Assembly: GCF_014145325.1 (NCBI RefSeq)
Contig: NZ_JACHTF010000010.1
Location: forward strand, 62,001-126,000
Source of the DNA: Marilutibacter spongiae
Lineage (GTDB): Bacteria; Pseudomonadota; Gammaproteobacteria; Xanthomonadales; Xanthomonadaceae
Direction of reading: 5' to 3'
DNA: 64,000 nucleotides
In this document: positions 1,606 through 62,933 of the stretch, piece by piece
Position numbering within the stretch: the first letter of the stretch is position 1
Layout of the letters: each line of letters begins with the position of its first letter
The notes under the pieces: model-generated
Seen by the model: only the letters and a program-made list of their open reading frames with translations
Database searches by the model: none
What the model was told of the DNA's origin: nothing
Program-made: the position numbers and the translations under genes

Positions 1606-4158
1606 ATGATGACGCGAACACCCAATCGCCGCCTGCTTGCCCTTGCCCTGACCACTGCCCTGTATCCCGCCGTGGTGCTTCCCGCAATGGCGCAGGAGGC
1701 CGGGCAGGCCCTGCCCAGTCCGTTCTCGCCGGACTACGCCGCGCCCGAAGCGTCCCCCGCGCCCGCCCCGATGCCCGGCGCGAGCGCGTTCCGCGTCAGC
1801 GACATCCGCGTCGATGGCCTGCAGCGCATCGCCGCCGGCACGGTGTTCACCTACCTGCCCGTCGAGCGTGGCGACACCCTCGACCAGGCCAAGGCCGGCG
1901 AGGCGATCCGCGCGCTCTACAAGACCGGCTTCTTCGAGGACATCAGCCTCTCGCGCCAGGGCGACATCCTCGTGGTCACCGTCCGCGAACGCCCGGCGAT
2001 CAACAAGCTCGAGCTCAAGGGCAACAAGGACATCGAGACCGAGCAGCTGATGGCCGGCCTCAACGACATCGGCCTGTCGGAAGGCAACACCTTCGACCGC
2101 CTGGCGTTGGACCGCGTCACCCAGGAGCTGACCCGCCAGTACAACAACCGCGGCAAGTACAACGTCGAGATCACGCCTTCGGTCGCCACCCTCGACCGCA
2201 ACCGCGTCGACCTCACCATCGACATCAAGGAAGGCAAGGCGGCCAAGATCCGCCACGTCAACCTGATCGGCAACGACAGCTTCGAGCAGAAGGACATCCT
2301 GGAGTCGTGGGAATCGCGCGAGAGCAACTGGCTCAGCTGGTACCGCCGCGACGACCAGTACTCCCGAGAGAAGTTCTCCGGCGACCTGGAGAAGCTCAAC
2401 TCCTGGTACCTGGACCGCGGCTACGTCGACGTCAGCATCGACACCCCGCAGGTGGCGATCAGCGGCGACCGCCAGGACATGTTCATCACCGCCGGCATCA
2501 CCGAGGGCGAGAAGTACACGGTGTCCAGCGTCGAGGTCACCGGCGACACGATCCTGCCCAAGGAGCAGATCGAGCGGATGGTGCTGGTGCAGCCCGAGCA
2601 GACCTTCTCGCGGCGCCTGCTCGAGGTCAGCTCCGACTCGATCACCGCCACCCTGGGCAACGTCGGCTACGCCTTCGCCCAGGTCAACACCATCCCGGAC
2701 ATCAACCGCGAAGAAAAGACCGTCGGCATCAACCTCCAGGTCGTGCCCGGCCCGCGCGTGAACGTGCGCCACGTGGTCTTCAAGGGCAACACGCGGACCG
2801 GCGACGAGGTCCTGCGCCGCGAGATGCGCCAGTTCGAGGGCGCCTGGTATTCGCAGGCGGCGATCGACCGCTCCAAGATCCGCCTCCAGGGCCTGGGCTT
2901 CTTCGAGACCGTCGATGTCGAGACGCAGCCCGTGCCGGGCAGCGACGACCAGGTCGACGTGGTCTACAACCTCAAGGAAACCACCTCCGGCAGCTTCGTG
3001 TTCGGCCTGGGCTATTCGCAGCTCGGCGGACTGAGCGCGCAGGTGCAGCTGTCGCAGAACAACTTCCTGGGCACCGGCAACCGCATGACGGTGCAGGCGC
3101 AGCGAAGCGATTACTACAACCGCTACGACTTCTCCTACGTCAATCCGTACTTCACCGACAGCGGCGTCTCGCTGGGCTACAACCTGTGGTTCCGCGACTA
3201 CGATTACGGCGAGTACAACACCGCGCAGTACAACAGCGAGAACGGCGCCGCGCAGGCGGTCTTCGGTATCCCGATCACCGAGACCGGGTCGATCACCGGC
3301 CTGTTCGGCATCGACAAGAACACCATCACCGCGTTCCGCGGCCAGACCCCGGAATCGATCGTCGACTACATCGACGCGATCGGCCAGCGCACGTTCCACG
3401 CCTGGCGCGGCGAGATCGGCTGGGCCCGCAACACGCTCAACAACGCCCTCACCCCGACCCGCGGCACCACCCAGCGCCTGTGGCTGGAAGCGACCCTGCC
3501 GGGCTCGACGGTCGAGTACTTCAAGATCAACTACAACATCTCCAAGTACTGGCCGGTGTCGCGTTGGCTGGTGCTCAACACCCGCGCCGAGCTGGGCTAC
3601 GGCGACAGCTACCAGGATCCGGTGGTCCGCAACGTCTGCTACACCGCCGGTACCTACACCGACTCCAACGGCGACGGGATCATCGACACCTACGTCCCCG
3701 GCCCCGATCCGACCGAACCCTGCGAAACCAGCTCGCCGGACTTCGTCGAGACCCTGACGGCCGACGGCCTGCCGTTCTTCGAGAACTTCTACGCCGGTGG
3801 CGTGCGCTCGGTCCGCGGCTTCCGCGACAACACCCTGGGCCCGCGCGAGACGCCCTTCCCGGGCAGCTCCTACGACCAGCCGGTGGGTGGCTCGTTCAAG
3901 ACGGTGGGTTCGTTCGAGATGATCTTCCCGACGCTGTTCGACAGCCCGGGGGCTCGCGTGTCCTCGTTCGTCGACTTCGGCAACGTCTTCCGCGACGTGG
4001 ACGCCTTCGACGCCGGCGAACTGCGCGCGTCGGCGGGCATCGCGTTGCTCTGGCGTTCGCCGATGGGCCCGATCTCGATTAGCTACGCCTACCCCTTCAA
4101 GAAAGAAGACGACGACGAGATCGAGCGCCTGCAGTTCACCTTCGGCGGCGCGTTCTGA
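1606..4158 (+). CDS. bamA: BamA, outer membrane protein assembly factor (Omp85)
   Basis: About 850 residues, slightly longer than the usual 800-810. BamA is the essential outer-membrane core of the BAM complex that folds and inserts beta-barrel proteins. A signal peptide ends near residue 29 (AMA|Q). Five POTRA domains follow to about residue 450 and then a 16-strand barrel. The diagnostic loop-6 VRGF motif is at 736-739 and the protein ends in aromatic F, as expected for a barrel. Starts GTG 1603, ATG 1606 and ATG 1609 are all possible; ATG 1606 is chosen arbitrarily. Residues about 676-722 are an insertion just ahead of the LPFFENF strand, with Cys678 and Cys706 flanking an EF-hand-like DSNGDGIID loop (686-694); see findings. 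No skp follows; lpxD begins after 34 bases. Confidence 0.96.
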   Translation: MMTRTPNRRLLALALTTALYPAVVLPAMAQEAGQALPSPFSPDYAAPEASPAPAPMPGASAFRVSDIRVDGLQRIAAGTVFTYLPVERGDTLDQAKAGEAIRALYKTGFFEDISLSRQGDILVVTVRERPAINKLELKGNKDIETEQLMAGLNDIGLSEGNTFDRLALDRVTQELTRQYNNRGKYNVEITPSVATLDRNRVDLTIDIKEGKAAKIRHVNLIGNDSFEQKDILESWESRESNWLSWYRRDDQYSREKFSGDLEKLNSWYLDRGYVDVSIDTPQVAISGDRQDMFITAGITEGEKYTVSSVEVTGDTILPKEQIERMVLVQPEQTFSRRLLEVSSDSITATLGNVGYAFAQVNTIPDINREEKTVGINLQVVPGPRVNVRHVVFKGNTRTGDEVLRREMRQFEGAWYSQAAIDRSKIRLQGLGFFETVDVETQPVPGSDDQVDVVYNLKETTSGSFVFGLGYSQLGGLSAQVQLSQNNFLGTGNRMTVQAQRSDYYNRYDFSYVNPYFTDSGVSLGYNLWFRDYDYGEYNTAQYNSENGAAQAVFGIPITETGSITGLFGIDKNTITAFRGQTPESIVDYIDAIGQRTFHAWRGEIGWARNTLNNALTPTRGTTQRLWLEATLPGSTVEYFKINYNISKYWPVSRWLVLNTRAELGYGDSYQDPVVRNVCYTAGTYTDSNGDGIIDTYVPGPDPTEPCETSSPDFVETLTADGLPFFENFYAGGVRSVRGFRDNTLGPRETPFPGSSYDQPVGGSFKTVGSFEMIFPTLFDSPGARVSSFVDFGNVFRDVDAFDAGELRASAGIALLWRSPMGPISISYAYPFKKEDDDEIERLQFTFGGAF

Positions 4159-12853: not shown

Positions 12854-16453
<3,600 letters not shown>

Positions 16454-47038: not shown

Positions 47039-47079
47039 GCGGGGAATCGGGACGCGGGGAATCGGGAAGCGGGAAGCGT
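47039..47079. repeat. Half REP-like element after the cnoX stop
   Basis: GCGGGGAATCGGGACGCGGGGAATCGGGAAGCGGGAAGCG: tandem GGGAATCGGG-type units like one arm of the palindromes at 31327 and in dnaE. The other arm is missing. It begins 4 bases after the cnoX stop and lies just upstream of a TTGACA box (47089-47094). Confidence 0.6.
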
Positions 47080-51435: not shown

Positions 51436-53280
51436 ATGACCCTGCCCCGCCTTGCCCGGACCCCGTTGACCGCCGCCCTGGCCGTCGCGATCGCTTTCAC
51501 TGGCCTGGCCCTGGCGCCGGCCCAGGCCGCCCACGCGCAGGCCGCCCTGCCGCTGTCGGCGGCGATGGCGACCGATGCCGCGAAGGCCGCCCGGCTCGAT
51601 GCGCTCTACGAGCAGTACTGGGAGGAGTCGCTGGAACTCAACCCGCTCTCGGCGACGTTCCAGGGCGATCCGCGTTACAACGACCGCCTGCCGAACTTCC
51701 TGTCCGCGGACTACCGCCAGAAGTCCCACGATTTCACCACGCGCTGGCTCAAGACCATCGAGGACATCGGGCCGGAAGGCCTCGACGGGCAGGACCTGAT
51801 CAGCTACGAGATGTTCGTGCGCGACCAGAAGAACGAACTCGCCGGCGAGCAGTTCCCCGGCTGGCAGCAGCCGATCAACCAGTTCTACAACCTCGCGGCG
51901 ATGGCCGTGCAGCTCGGCTCGGGCACCGGCGCGCAGCCCTTCAAGACCGTCGAGGACTACGACAACTGGACCAGGCGCGCCTCGCAGGTGCCGGTGCTGT
52001 TCGACCAGGCCATCGCCAACATGAAGGTCGGCGTGGAGAACGGCGTCGTGCAGCCGCGCGCGCTGATGGAGAAAGTGGTCCCGCAGCTCGACGCGCTGAT
52101 CAAGGACGATCCCACCCAGACCCTGTTCTGGGGTCCCATCAAGAACATGCCCGAGTCCTTCAGCGAAGCCGACCGCACGCGCCTCACCGCCGAGTACAAG
52201 GCACTGATCGCCGACACCCTGATGCCGGCCTACGGCGAGCTGCGCAGCTACATCGTCGACGACTACATGCCGCACACCCGCGACAGCGCCGGCATGGACG
52301 CGCTGCCGAACGGCGCCGCGTGGTACGCCTTCAACGCCCGCCAGCGCACCACCACCGACCTGACCCCGGCCCAGATCCACGAGATCGGCCTGTCGGAGGT
52401 CAAGCGCATCCATGGCGAGATCCTGGAGGTGATGAAGGAGGTGGGCTTCAAGGGTTCGCTGCAGGACTTCTTCCGCTTCATGCAGGACGACCCGCGCTTC
52501 AGCTTCGAGACCGAGGACGCGCTGCTGGCCTACTACCGTGGGCTCGAGGACAAGATCGACGCGCACGTCCCCAAGCTGTTCTCGCTCACGCCGAAGGCAC
52601 CGTTCGAGATCCGCCCGGTCGAGCCCTTCCGCGCGCAGTCGGCCGCCGGCGGCTCGTACATGAGCCCGAGCGAGGACGGCACGCGCCCGGGCATCTTCTA
52701 CGTCAATACCTACGACCTGCCGACCCGCAAGACCTGGGACGCTGAGGACCTGTACCTGCACGAGGCCATCCCCGGCCACCACTTCCAGCTGGCGCTCCAG
52801 CAGGAGCTGACCAACCTGCCGAAGTTCCGCCGCTTCGGCGGCGAAACCGCCTTCACCGAGGGCTGGGGTCTCTATGCCGAGTCGCTGGGCAAGGACCTGG
52901 GCGTCTACACCGACCCCTACAATTATTTCGGTTACCTGCAGAACGAGTTGTGGCGCGCCATCCGCCTGGTCGTCGACACCGGCCTGCACAGCAAGGGCTG
53001 GACCCGCGAGCAGGTGATCAAGTACATGCTCGACAACTCCGCCGAGAGCGAAACCCAGTCCACCGCCGAAGCCGAGCGCTACATGGCCATCCCGGGCCAG
53101 GCGCTGGCTTACAAGATCGGCGAGCTGAAGATCAAGGAACTGCGCGCACGCGCGGAGAAGGCCCTGGGGGATCGCTTCGACATCCGCGAGTTCCATGCCG
53201 AAGTACTGAAGGACGGCTCGGTGCCGCTGGAAGTCCTGGAAGGCAAGATCGACCGCTGGATCGCCGCCAGGCAGGGATGA
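51436..53280 (+). CDS. DUF885 family secreted metallopeptidase-like protein
   Basis: 614 residues. A signal peptide ends near residue 34 (AHA|QA). The DUF885 domain covers nearly all the rest. A gluzincin-type active site is visible: LHEAIPGHHFQ with HExxxGHH, then EGWGLYAES with the third ligand Glu. DUF885 proteins are widespread in Xanthomonadaceae and are predicted zinc peptidases of the periplasm; specificity is unknown. ATG 51436 follows GGAGCT. The gene ends 34 bases before a strong terminator, which is copied again at 54090. Confidence 0.9.
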   Translation: MTLPRLARTPLTAALAVAIAFTGLALAPAQAAHAQAALPLSAAMATDAAKAARLDALYEQYWEESLELNPLSATFQGDPRYNDRLPNFLSADYRQKSHDFTTRWLKTIEDIGPEGLDGQDLISYEMFVRDQKNELAGEQFPGWQQPINQFYNLAAMAVQLGSGTGAQPFKTVEDYDNWTRRASQVPVLFDQAIANMKVGVENGVVQPRALMEKVVPQLDALIKDDPTQTLFWGPIKNMPESFSEADRTRLTAEYKALIADTLMPAYGELRSYIVDDYMPHTRDSAGMDALPNGAAWYAFNARQRTTTDLTPAQIHEIGLSEVKRIHGEILEVMKEVGFKGSLQDFFRFMQDDPRFSFETEDALLAYYRGLEDKIDAHVPKLFSLTPKAPFEIRPVEPFRAQSAAGGSYMSPSEDGTRPGIFYVNTYDLPTRKTWDAEDLYLHEAIPGHHFQLALQQELTNLPKFRRFGGETAFTEGWGLYAESLGKDLGVYTDPYNYFGYLQNELWRAIRLVVDTGLHSKGWTREQVIKYMLDNSAESETQSTAEAERYMAIPGQALAYKIGELKIKELRARAEKALGDRFDIREFHAEVLKDGSVPLEVLEGKIDRWIAARQG

Positions 53281-53282
53281 TC

Positions 53283-53340
53283 CCTGCGCGGACGGCCCTT
53301 TCGAGGCAAAAAAGAGCCGGCATCGCGCCGGCTTTTTTTT
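53283..53340 (+). terminator. Bidirectional terminator, copy 1 of a duplicated 51-bp segment
   Basis: Stem AGCCGGC-ATCGC-GCCGGCT (53315-53333), preceded by A6 and followed by T8, a strong rho-independent terminator for DUF885. The segment 53283-53333 is repeated at 54090-54141 with one extra A. Confidence 0.9.
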
Positions 53341-53431
53341 GGGTCCTGTTCCAACTGAGTGGAGAACGGCGCATCGCTCCTCCGGGCTACGCGCCCTGCC
53401 CACCCTATGAGGCCGGGGTAGAGGCAGCACC

Positions 53432-54087
53432 GTAGGATGGGTAGCGCGAAGCAAAACCCATCGTGCGTCTTGCGTGAAATACCGCGACGGTGGGTTTCGC
53501 CTTTGGCTCTACCCACCCTACGAGGCGGGATGAGAGGCAGACCCGTAGGATGGGTAGCGCGAAGCAAAACCCATCGTCCGTCGTGCGTGAAATAACGCGA
53601 CGGTGGGTTTCGCCTTTGGCTCTACCCACCCTACGAGGCAAGGTGAGAGGCAGCGCCGTAGGATGGGTGGCGCGAAGCAAAACCCATCGTCCGTCGTGCG
53701 TGAAATACCGCGACGGTGGGTTTCGCCTTTGGCTCTACCCACCCTACGAGGCGGGATGAGAGGCAGCGCCGTAGGATGGGTGGCGCGAAGCAAAACCCAT
53801 CGTCCGTCGTGCGTGAAATACCGCGACGGTGGGTTTCGCCTTTGGCTCTACCCACCCTACGAGGCGGGATGAGAGGCAGACCCGTAGGATGGGTAGCGCG
53901 AAGCAAAACCCATCGTCCGTCGTGCGTGAAATCCCGCGACGGTGGGTTTCGCCTTTGGCTCTACCCACCCTACGAGGCGGGATGAGAGGCAGACCCGTAG
54001 GATGGGTGGCGCGAAGCAAAACCCATCGTCCGTCGTGCGTGAAATCCCGCGACGGTGGGTTTCGCCTTCGGCTCTACCCACCCTACG
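53432..54087. repeat. Six-unit tandem array of a 113-bp palindromic repeat
   Basis: GTAGGATGGGT starts recur at 53432, 53545, 53658, 53771, 53884 and 53997, exactly 113 bases apart. Each unit is a palindrome of about 91 bases (left arm GTAGGATGGGTAGCGCGAAG, right arm ending GCTCTACCCACCCTAC) plus a 22-base spacer (GAGGCGGGATGAGAGGCAG-type); the last unit lacks its spacer. Units differ at a few bases only (TAG/TGG, AATACC/AATCCC/AATAAC). The array is bounded by two copies of the terminator segment. A degenerate right arm precedes unit 1 at about 53383-53431. Open frames occur in it on both strands and are a by-product of the repeat. Confidence 0.93.
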
Positions 54088-54089
54088 CT

Positions 54090-54141
54090 CCTGCGCGGAC
54101 GGCCCTTTCGAGGCAAAAAAAGAGCCGGCATCGCGCCGGCT
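54090..54141 (-). terminator. Terminator copy 2, acting for the rhlE gene
   Basis: Same segment as 53283-53333 with one additional A. Read on the minus strand, hairpin AGCCGGC/GCCGGCT is followed by T7, a good terminator 26 bases after the RhlE stop. The T-tract for the + strand is lost in this copy (CTCTTCC instead). Confidence 0.9.
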
Positions 54142-54166: not shown

Positions 54167-55501
54167 TCAGGCCCCGGCGCCGCCGCTGCGCGAGGCACCG
54201 CCGCGACGGCCGGGGCCACCGCGCTGCTTCGGCCCGGCATGGGCGTGGCGCGGTGCCGGCTTGCCGTGCGGGCGATGGCCCGGTGCGCGACGCGCGTTGT
54301 TGTTGTTGCCACCGCCGCCGCGCTTGCTGCGCGGGTTGGGGATCGCGACGTCGAGGCGGATCGGACGGCTGGGCTCGAAGCCCTCGACCTCGATCATCTC
54401 CACGTCCTTCTTGAGCACGCGCTGGATCTGCCGCAGCAGGCCACCCTCGTCGTGCGAGACCAGCGACAGCGCCTCGCCCGACGCGCCGTTGCGGCCGGTG
54501 CGACCAATGCGGTGCACGTAGTCCTCGGCGACCATCGGCAGGTCGAAGTTGATGACCAGCGGCAGGTTGGGGATGTCCAGGCCGCGCGCGGCCACGTCGG
54601 TCGCCACCAGCACGCGGGCCTTGGCCGCCTTGAAGGCGTTGAGGGCCTTCTGGCGCTGCGCCTGGCTCTTGTTGCCGTGGATCGCGACGGCCTTGATGCC
54701 GGCCTTGTCGAGCTGCTCGGCCAGGCGGTTGCAACCGTGCTTGGTGCGGCCGAACACGATCACCTGGTCGGTGTGGCGCTTGGCCAGGATGTCGATCAGC
54801 AGGTCGCGCTTGCTGTCGACGTCGACCGGATGCGCGCGGTGGGCGATGGTCTCGGCGATGGTGTTCTGCGCGGCCACCTGCACCTGCCGGGGATCACGCA
54901 TGAACTCCAGCGCCAACGCCTTGATCTGCGCTTCGAAGGTCGCCGAGAACAGCAGGGTCTGGCGCTCGCGCGGCAGCTTGACGAGGATGCGCTTGATCGC
55001 CGGCAGGAAGCCCATGTCGAGCATGCGGTCGGCCTCGTCCATGACCAGCACTTCGATCGCGTCCAGGCGCACGCTGCCGCGCTCCATGTGGTCGATCAGG
55101 CGGCCGGGGGTGGCGACGAGCACGTCGACGCCACGACGCAGCGCGTCGACCTGCGGACCCATGCCGACGCCGCCGAAGATCATGCAGCTGGCGACCTGCA
55201 GGTGGCGGGCGTAGCCGCGCAGGTTCTCGTGCACCTGCACGGCCAGTTCGCGGGTAGGCACCAGCACCAGCACGCGCGGTTTGCGCGGGCCCTTGGCCGG
55301 CGTGGTCTTGGACAGGCGGTTGAGCAGCGGCAGGCTGAAGGCGGCGGTCTTGCCGGTACCGGTCTGGGCGCCGCCAAGCAGGTCGTGGCCGGCCAGGATC
55401 AGCGGGATCGCTTCGGCCTGGATCGGGGTCGGCGTGGTGTAGCCCTGTTCCGAGAGCGCACGCAGCAACGCGGGCGCAAGCCCGAGGGATTCAAAAGACA
55501 T
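54167..55501 (-). CDS. rhlE: RhlE-type DEAD-box RNA helicase
   Basis: 444 residues. Motifs in order: Q-motif PTPIQAEAI, I AQTGTGKTA, Ia PTRELAVQV, Ib TPGRLIDH, II DEAD, III SATF, IV VIVFGRT, V RGLDIP, VI HRIGRTGR. The C-terminal tail (about 385-444) is basic and rich in Gly, Arg, Asn and His (GGGGNNNNARR and later GPGRRGGASRSGG), typical of RNA-binding tails. RhlE-type helicases act in ribosome assembly and RNA turnover. ATG 55501 (MSFESLGL) fits the family; the frame extends upstream to 55594. GGAGCT precedes the start. Confidence 0.93.
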   Translation of the reverse strand: MSFESLGLAPALLRALSEQGYTTPTPIQAEAIPLILAGHDLLGGAQTGTGKTAAFSLPLLNRLSKTTPAKGPRKPRVLVLVPTRELAVQVHENLRGYARHLQVASCMIFGGVGMGPQVDALRRGVDVLVATPGRLIDHMERGSVRLDAIEVLVMDEADRMLDMGFLPAIKRILVKLPRERQTLLFSATFEAQIKALALEFMRDPRQVQVAAQNTIAETIAHRAHPVDVDSKRDLLIDILAKRHTDQVIVFGRTKHGCNRLAEQLDKAGIKAVAIHGNKSQAQRQKALNAFKAAKARVLVATDVAARGLDIPNLPLVINFDLPMVAEDYVHRIGRTGRNGASGEALSLVSHDEGGLLRQIQRVLKKDVEMIEVEGFEPSRPIRLDVAIPNPRSKRGGGGNNNNARRAPGHRPHGKPAPRHAHAGPKQRGGPGRRGGASRSGGAGA

Positions 55502-55841
55502 GTGGAGCTCCAATTCCTGATCCGCACCCATGGATGCGGAATCACCCGGAGCTTTCCCTGTAGCCGCGCTGCGAGTCGTTTTTTTGAACGGCACCGGATG
55601 CTCCGGGCCGTGTCGGCGCTACGAATGACGTGCGGAATACAGGCCGCGCCCCGCCCCTTGCGGGCGCCCAGCGGGATCGTGTCCCGTTGGATGTGGGGTG
55701 CGGCAGGATATAGCTGGGAAACGTACCCTTTCGGGCAGCAACCGAGCACCAGACGCCGCGCACTGTACGCGAAAGGCCCCGTCCGCGCCAGCGCGCCCGC
55801 CCGCGCCTTCGTTCAGGCAGCGCCGCCGTCGCACTCCCCGT
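55502..55841. other. Leader region upstream of rhlE (340 bases without a gene)
   Basis: No convincing gene. A hairpin TCCGCACCCATGGATGCGGA (55521-55540; 8-bp stem with one mismatch) lies about 20 bases upstream of the rhlE start, and the Shine-Dalgarno is inside the palindrome TGGAGCTCCA (55503-55512). A run of seven T at about 55580-55586 (A7 on the rhlE transcript) follows. A long structured leader fits a cold-shock or self-controlled helicase, which is inference. Hypothetical frames on either strand here have no support. Confidence 0.45.
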
Positions 55842-62850: not shown

Positions 62851-62933
62851 GTGATTGGTGATTGGTGATTCGGGGATGGGGCATGGGGCGCCTCCGATTC
62901 CCGATTCCCGATTCCCGCGTTCCCGATTCCCGG
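62851..62933. repeat. REP-like palindrome between a hypothetical gene and pit
   Basis: It begins 1 base after the 62849 stop with GTGATTGGTGATTGGTGATTCGGGGATGGGG and ends CCCGATTCCCGATTCCCGCGTTCCCGATTCCCGG, 4 bases before the pit stop (62938). Right-arm units match those at 31327 and in dnaE; the left arm is more diverged. Two convergent stops flank it directly. Confidence 0.8.

Follow-up and report, generated by a model that had tools for sequence, protein, structure and literature searches.

The DNA between the convergent DUF885 and rhlE genes of Marilutibacter spongiae carries a tandem REPIN/BIME cluster rather than one 113-bp palindrome. Six units, spaced at exactly 113 bp, occupy positions 53430–54087 of the window (the whole 64,000-nucleotide stretch that was analysed) and lie between two near-identical terminator segments of 51 and 52 bp. 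The duplication of the terminator is real, common to the sister species Marilutibacter aestuarii, and uncommon. The arrangement is very probably the outcome of REPINs dispersed by a RAYT transposase, local tandem duplication that carried flanking DNA along, and tolerance of the resulting array because both genes kept a terminator.

The layout is given in Table 1. TRF reported a period of 113 with 6.1 copies, 95% matches and a score of 1222, and in the direct-repeat family the spacing of 113 was found five times over within the array, in agreement with the initial annotation, which had placed six units exactly 113 bases apart. The count of six rests on a draft assembly (52 contigs, 3.6 Mb) and could be a short-read miscount. 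A 21-bp core motif (≤3 mismatches) gave six matches in the 64-kb window, all inside the array, where a mean of 0.02 over 100 shuffles was expected. What had been described as a 113-bp palindrome resolves into a 93-bp imperfect palindrome and a 20-bp spacer, and the palindrome in turn into two different elements: a GTAG-type REP A (GTAGGATGGGT..AACCCATC), followed at a distance of 26 bp by an inverted REP B (GTAGGGTGGGT..AACCCACC on the other strand). Among the six units, the 93-bp parts share 95–100% identity. As regards the neighbouring genes, the helicase gene gave its best NCBIfam match to RhlE (NF007882) with 546.9 bits, under the cut-off of 743 for that model, and matched DEAD (PF00270) with 170 bits. 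Matches to Rfam microRNA, leader and RtT families fell far under their gathering scores and are taken as chance. Elsewhere in the window, short tandem repeats with GGGAAT- or GAATCGG-like units are seen at 14614–14643, 47039–47073 and 62894–62932.

Table 1. Features of the DUF885/rhlE junction, in positions of the window
Feature	Position	Strand	Remarks
DUF885 gene	51436..53280	+	PF05960, 604.9 bits; stop 2 bp before terminator copy 1
Terminator copy 1	53283..53340	.	duplicated part 53283–53333; T8 reaches 53340; T6 on other strand
Non-repeated DNA, copy 1 to array	53341..53398	.	start alignable with M. aestuarii (by eye)
Apparent truncated seventh unit: tail and spacer	53399..53429	+	read by eye
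REPIN 1	53430..53522	+	REP A 53432–53462 (+), inverted REP B 53489–53521 (−); then 20-bp spacer
REPIN 2	53543..53635	+	
REPIN 3	53656..53748	+	
REPIN 4	53769..53861	+	identical to REPIN 3
REPIN 5	53882..53974	+	
REPIN 6	53995..54087	+	ends 2 bp before terminator copy 2
Terminator copy 2	54090..54141	.	T7 on − strand for rhlE; + strand T run broken
RhlE-like DEAD-box RNA helicase	54167..55594	−	convergent with DUF885

The elements of the array belong to a dispersed family. Counts of REP A/REP B (≤3 mismatches) were 117/119 in the genome of the window (G000), 62/64 in that of M. aestuarii (G003, Lysobacter aestuarii) and 43/36 in a metagenome bin (G006); the other four of the seven genus genomes gave 0/0, except for one REP B in G005, and reversed-pattern controls for both REPs gave 0 matches. 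With a 227-bp query from the array, seven of 40 genomes (that of the window among them) gave matches: 44 in G000, 31 in G003, 43 in G006, and 2–9 weak ones in the other four. A GTAG tag beside a short palindrome, in high copy number, is what defines a GTAG-type REP, and both traits are found here. The fetched loci hold 142 pairs of REP A and inverted REP B, 128 of them distinct (three of the 142 are counted twice, L120 and L176 being one place), and it is this pair of two inverted REPs, the composition of a REPIN or BIME, that forms the repeated unit. Another dispersed palindrome, of the CGTCATCCCAGCGAACGCTGGGATCCAGC type, was observed in the flanks of many REPIN array loci (for example L190, L177 and L009 near 7040), with 30–35 other fetched loci holding it.

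The BIME-2 arrays of Escherichia coli consist of tandem alternating REPs in 3′ intergenic regions, and the present array resembles them in both the tandem alternation and the location. Tandem REPIN clusters that include flanking sequence are already published, the duplicated terminator being an unusual local twist. In Pseudomonas fluorescens SBW25, ordered tandem clusters of near-identical REPINs include flanking sequence (PMC3116915), and the array described here is likewise an ordered cluster of near-identical REPINs with flanking sequence in the repeat. REPIN clusters beside RAYT genes are a further likeness, whereas the REP sequences are different and the word “terminator” occurs 0 times in the main text of that paper. 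The outer GTAG tags, the pairing of two different REPs in inverted orientation at a distance of 26 bp, the location between convergent or co-directional genes and a RAYT flanked by REPs are shared with the GTAG superfamily and its HH heterodimers and REPtrons (PMC3733652); the text of that paper, in which 24 families are defined, does not contain the word “Lysobacter”. REPs of E. coli carry a stem bulge (PMC8266576), whereas the 7-bp outer stems are fully paired in most copies here. REPs of Stenotrophomonas, another genus of the same family of bacteria, are already in print. A limited search of the open-access literature found no report on the present REP family or on Lysobacter REPINs.

REPINs would be non-autonomous and depend for their spread on a RAYT from another place in the genome. 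A RAYT gene is present in G000 at C14:7639–8169 (NF047646, 203.4 bits; cut-off 80). Among solved structures (E ≤ 0.001), the sole match of its product was TnpAREP 4er8 (E = 3.2e-49), with which the HxH and the tyrosine align. Both REP types stand on both sides of the gene (L122), and a 92% RAYT ortholog in G006 is likewise flanked by the same REP types (L120); a RAYT gene flanked by the same REPs is the hallmark of a REPtron. No close RAYT was found in the M. aestuarii assembly, where the best relative reached 59%; for a species with many REPs, this tells against the RAYT-based explanation. The gene was probably lost in that species, since the region syntenic with the RAYT locus (L231, G003:C90:4800–5450) keeps its REPs with no credible RAYT match (best tblastn E 1.9). 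On contig C13 of G000, three similar Y1_Tnp genes stand in a row on one strand (L115, L118 and L121; C13:3195–6860), with a RAYT relative nearby at C13:1719–2180.

The terminator copies at 53283–53333 and 54090–54141 are 98% identical with one gap, which bears out the earlier observation that a segment of 51–52 bases is duplicated around the array. In both, a GC-rich hairpin is followed by a T run on the strand of the adjacent gene, as expected of a predicted intrinsic terminator. Copy 1 has its T8 on the + strand at 53333–53340 and also retains the T6 run on the − strand, and is bidirectional by sequence, whereas the + strand tail of copy 2 is broken (CTCTTCCTT) and its T7 lies on the − strand. 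Of the proposal that each copy had come to serve one gene, the part on copy 2, whose T run suits rhlE only, agrees with the sequence, whereas copy 1 has T runs in both directions. Our own hairpin/T-run finder called copy 1 on the + strand and copy 2 on the − strand; a stricter terminator scan reported copy 1 alone, on the − strand. Judged by position, each outer copy appears best placed to act as the terminator of its adjacent gene.

The same site was compared in relatives, as the initial annotation had suggested. Among 73 loci of relatives, rhlE lies convergent downstream in 20; with L029, L036 and L037 left out (rhlE >4 kb away), 17 DUF885/rhlE gaps were inspected. Eight of these (L010, L011, L028, L030, L040, L045, L053 and L079) show, by eye, a short gap of 84–154 bp between the matched coding ends, one terminator-like hairpin and no array, i.e. 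0 units. Another eight, L050 among them, have gaps of 231–3137 bp, some apparently with another gene. In M. aestuarii (L009) both terminator copies are present; the roughly 700 bp between them hold one truncated REPIN, one full REPIN and other DNA, and the sequence adjoining the outer copies corresponds to that in the window species. The left unit of M. aestuarii is 92% identical to unit 1 of the window and 86–89% identical to units 2–6. DUF885 shares 93.8% identity with M. aestuarii and 93.3% with L010; for rhlE the values are 96.4% and 92.4%, respectively.

Because eight relatives have a single copy and M. aestuarii has two, one bidirectional terminator was duplicated in the history of the array, just as had been suggested from the window. 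The duplication probably predates the split of the window species and M. aestuarii, with the number of units changing later. The simplest order is duplication in their common ancestor and subsequent expansion to six units here; other histories are possible, in which the whole arrangement was lost in L010 or units were lost in M. aestuarii. The unit number differs between species (the window species being represented by one strain). The duplication itself is shared with M. aestuarii and for that reason is not very recent.

The genomic context of the clusters was scored with a home-made gene caller seeded with three window genes and applied to the fetched loci only. Of 74 clusters, 62 were placed between two called genes and the other 12 at edges, so that the elements are mostly extragenic, as are GTAG-type REPs. 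The 62 scorable contexts comprise 42 convergent, 20 co-directional and 0 divergent ones (in both L122 and L158, two clusters fall on the same gene pair, and this site and its ortholog L198 are both included); the 53 adjacent gene pairs of the window are 11 convergent, 31 co-directional and 11 divergent. When the two L122 clusters were left out and the two L158 clusters merged, 39 convergent sites were retained, with a terminator-like hairpin on one side only at 23, on neither side at 13 and on both at 3 (shuffled flanks gave 1.8% in this test). The three with hairpins on both sides are this site, L198 and L210, the second hairpin of L210 being similar to a different dispersed repeat. Convergent array sites with terminators on both flanks are thus exceptional.

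The concentration of arrays between convergent genes could be read as a sign of a selected role at this site, for example as an RNA 3′-end stabiliser or a DNA-level boundary between convergent genes. The conservation of the REP stems as pairs would agree with such a role, and so would the folding of the unit, which is better than in shuffles (z −4.24 for DNA, with an equally good fold in 2 of 200). Still, recognition by the transposase and purging near promoters would account equally well for the conserved stems and the 3′ location, the unit number varies, and eight relatives do without the array. Moreover, a terminator is predicted to precede the array from both sides, so that the array should be in neither mRNA. 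A selected role is thus considered very improbable.

Whether duplicated flanks are a general property of these clusters was assessed for the 74 REP clusters in the fetched loci (a subset of the genomic copies), 67 of which had usable flanks. Direct repeats between flanks were compared with 4422 mismatched pairs (90th percentile 13, 99th percentile 32): 12 of the 67 clusters scored at least 13, several of them owing to other dispersed repeats, and 55 scored below 13. Locus-specific repeats above the 99th percentile were restricted to four clusters, namely this site (48), L199 (46), L204 (36) and L209 (32.5), with diverged copies in L204 (82%) and L209 (79%); they measure 51–70 bp and stand at differing distances. 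L198, the ortholog of this site in M. aestuarii, escaped detection, since its copy 1 falls outside the flank used. An alternative flank test (200-bp flanks, tighter clustering; 61 of 70 clusters usable) gave a score of 114 for L194, a locus merged into one cluster in the test of the 67. At L194 (M. aestuarii, G003:C51:28600–31900), a 157-bp flank is duplicated around one REPIN.

These data bear on the reading of the 51/52-bp repeats as a target-site duplication left by block insertion of the array. Direct repeats that bound an insertion look like this, and a mere 2 bp separate copy 2 from the last REPIN, but copy 1 stands 96 bp from REPIN 1, separated from it by other DNA. As a general rule, target-site duplication calls for repeats of fixed length at most insertions, and is rejected in view of the four clusters with strong repeats of varied length and distance and of the majority under the 90th percentile. 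This class of transposase is not known to make target duplications. For the present site, the explanation is regarded as very unlikely.

Local tandem duplication that picked up flanking DNA is favoured by the arrays themselves, since their periods (113, 127, 160, 185, 298 and 373 bp) and spacers are locus-specific and the 51-bp spacer of L161 repeats that array's own left flank; in the 160-bp array, L201, the REP A half alone was matched. Two further loci resemble the present one. L199 (on G000:C3; positions 1728–3571 of the locus) is a nine-unit REPIN array of period 185 between two copies of a terminator; the duplicated segment begins 1 bp ahead of the upstream gene's stop codon, and the next gene is co-directional, so that the second terminator copy serves no convergent gene. 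Of its orthologs, that in G006 has one terminator and no array, and that in G003 one copy with REPs up to the contig end. In Luteimonas marina, the DUF885/rhlE junction (L050, 6717–6975) holds a GTAG REP of another family, present 54 times in that genome, with a copy of a terminator segment of about 35 bp on either side; this repeat aligned with a score of 21.5, whereas 2000 shuffles reached 18 at most, the split point having been picked after the repeat had been seen. This locus (shared with M. aestuarii), L199 and L050, with its unrelated REP, are in line with a broader scheme in which the 3′ end of the adjacent gene, together with its terminator, is copied recurrently as REPINs insert or expand, so that the array ends up between duplicated terminators. 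We put this forward as a doubtful generalisation. Flank copying is not obligatory, since most arrays lack a flank duplication.

The published cleavage site of TnpAREP is a CT dinucleotide. By eye, the shared segment starts at, or 1 bp before, a CT at four junctions (this locus, L199, L161 and L050), and CT was present upstream of 28 of 63 clusters (10 of 63 in the control). Downstream of clusters it was not enriched (14 of 63, with 20 of 63 in the far control), and the M. aestuarii copy of this junction has no such CT. RAYT cleavage at CT as the origin of the duplication junctions is unsupported on these two grounds.

Across the 128 distinct REPINs, the individual REP stems are paired in 97.6% (REP A) and 97.7% (REP B) of cells. 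Exchanges between loci, a fairer count than copies as those within a locus are related, point the same way: pair 59–85 is G–C in 52 loci and A–T in five, which restores the REP B hairpin, and pair 11–25 is T–A in 54 loci and C–G in two, which keeps the REP's own stem. That the 93-bp long hairpin, rather than the single REP, is the conserved entity (as a cruciform or a single long RNA) is very unlikely, and as a conserved unit it is rejected on the comparison of stem pairing: it is the minimum-energy fold of the unit, and its inner stem is 97.1% paired if G–T counts, but Watson–Crick pairs make up only 82.5% of that stem, and the outer long stem is 88.9% paired, with A·C at one fixed place in 109 of 128 copies.

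In the preferred explanation, i.e. RAYT-dispersed REPINs with local tandem duplication, a REPIN would have inserted next to the one bidirectional terminator that separated DUF885 from rhlE; this probably took place in a common ancestor with M. aestuarii. Local duplication would then have copied the 3′ flank together with the terminator, giving a copy on either side, and in the lineage of the window the 113-bp unit (REPIN plus 20-bp spacer) may have expanded to six via slippage or unequal recombination. DUF885 transcripts are predicted to end at copy 1 and those of rhlE at copy 2, and the array would be little transcribed and probably without a locus-specific function.

The comparative series, from one terminator and no element in eight relatives, via two terminators around a full and a truncated unit in M. 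aestuarii, to two terminators with six units in the window, offers a view of the way in which a REPIN cluster becomes established where two convergent genes meet. Possibly new is the copying of a terminator as a recurrent part of how these arrays settle; if true, neither transcript would extend into the array, which would leave arrays free to grow between convergent genes. At the 23 of 39 convergent sites with a hairpin on one side only, transcription of the opposite gene may run on into the array; the present site, where both genes keep a terminator, offers a contrast. Comparison of such sites within one genome could thus serve to test how REP arrays affect termination.
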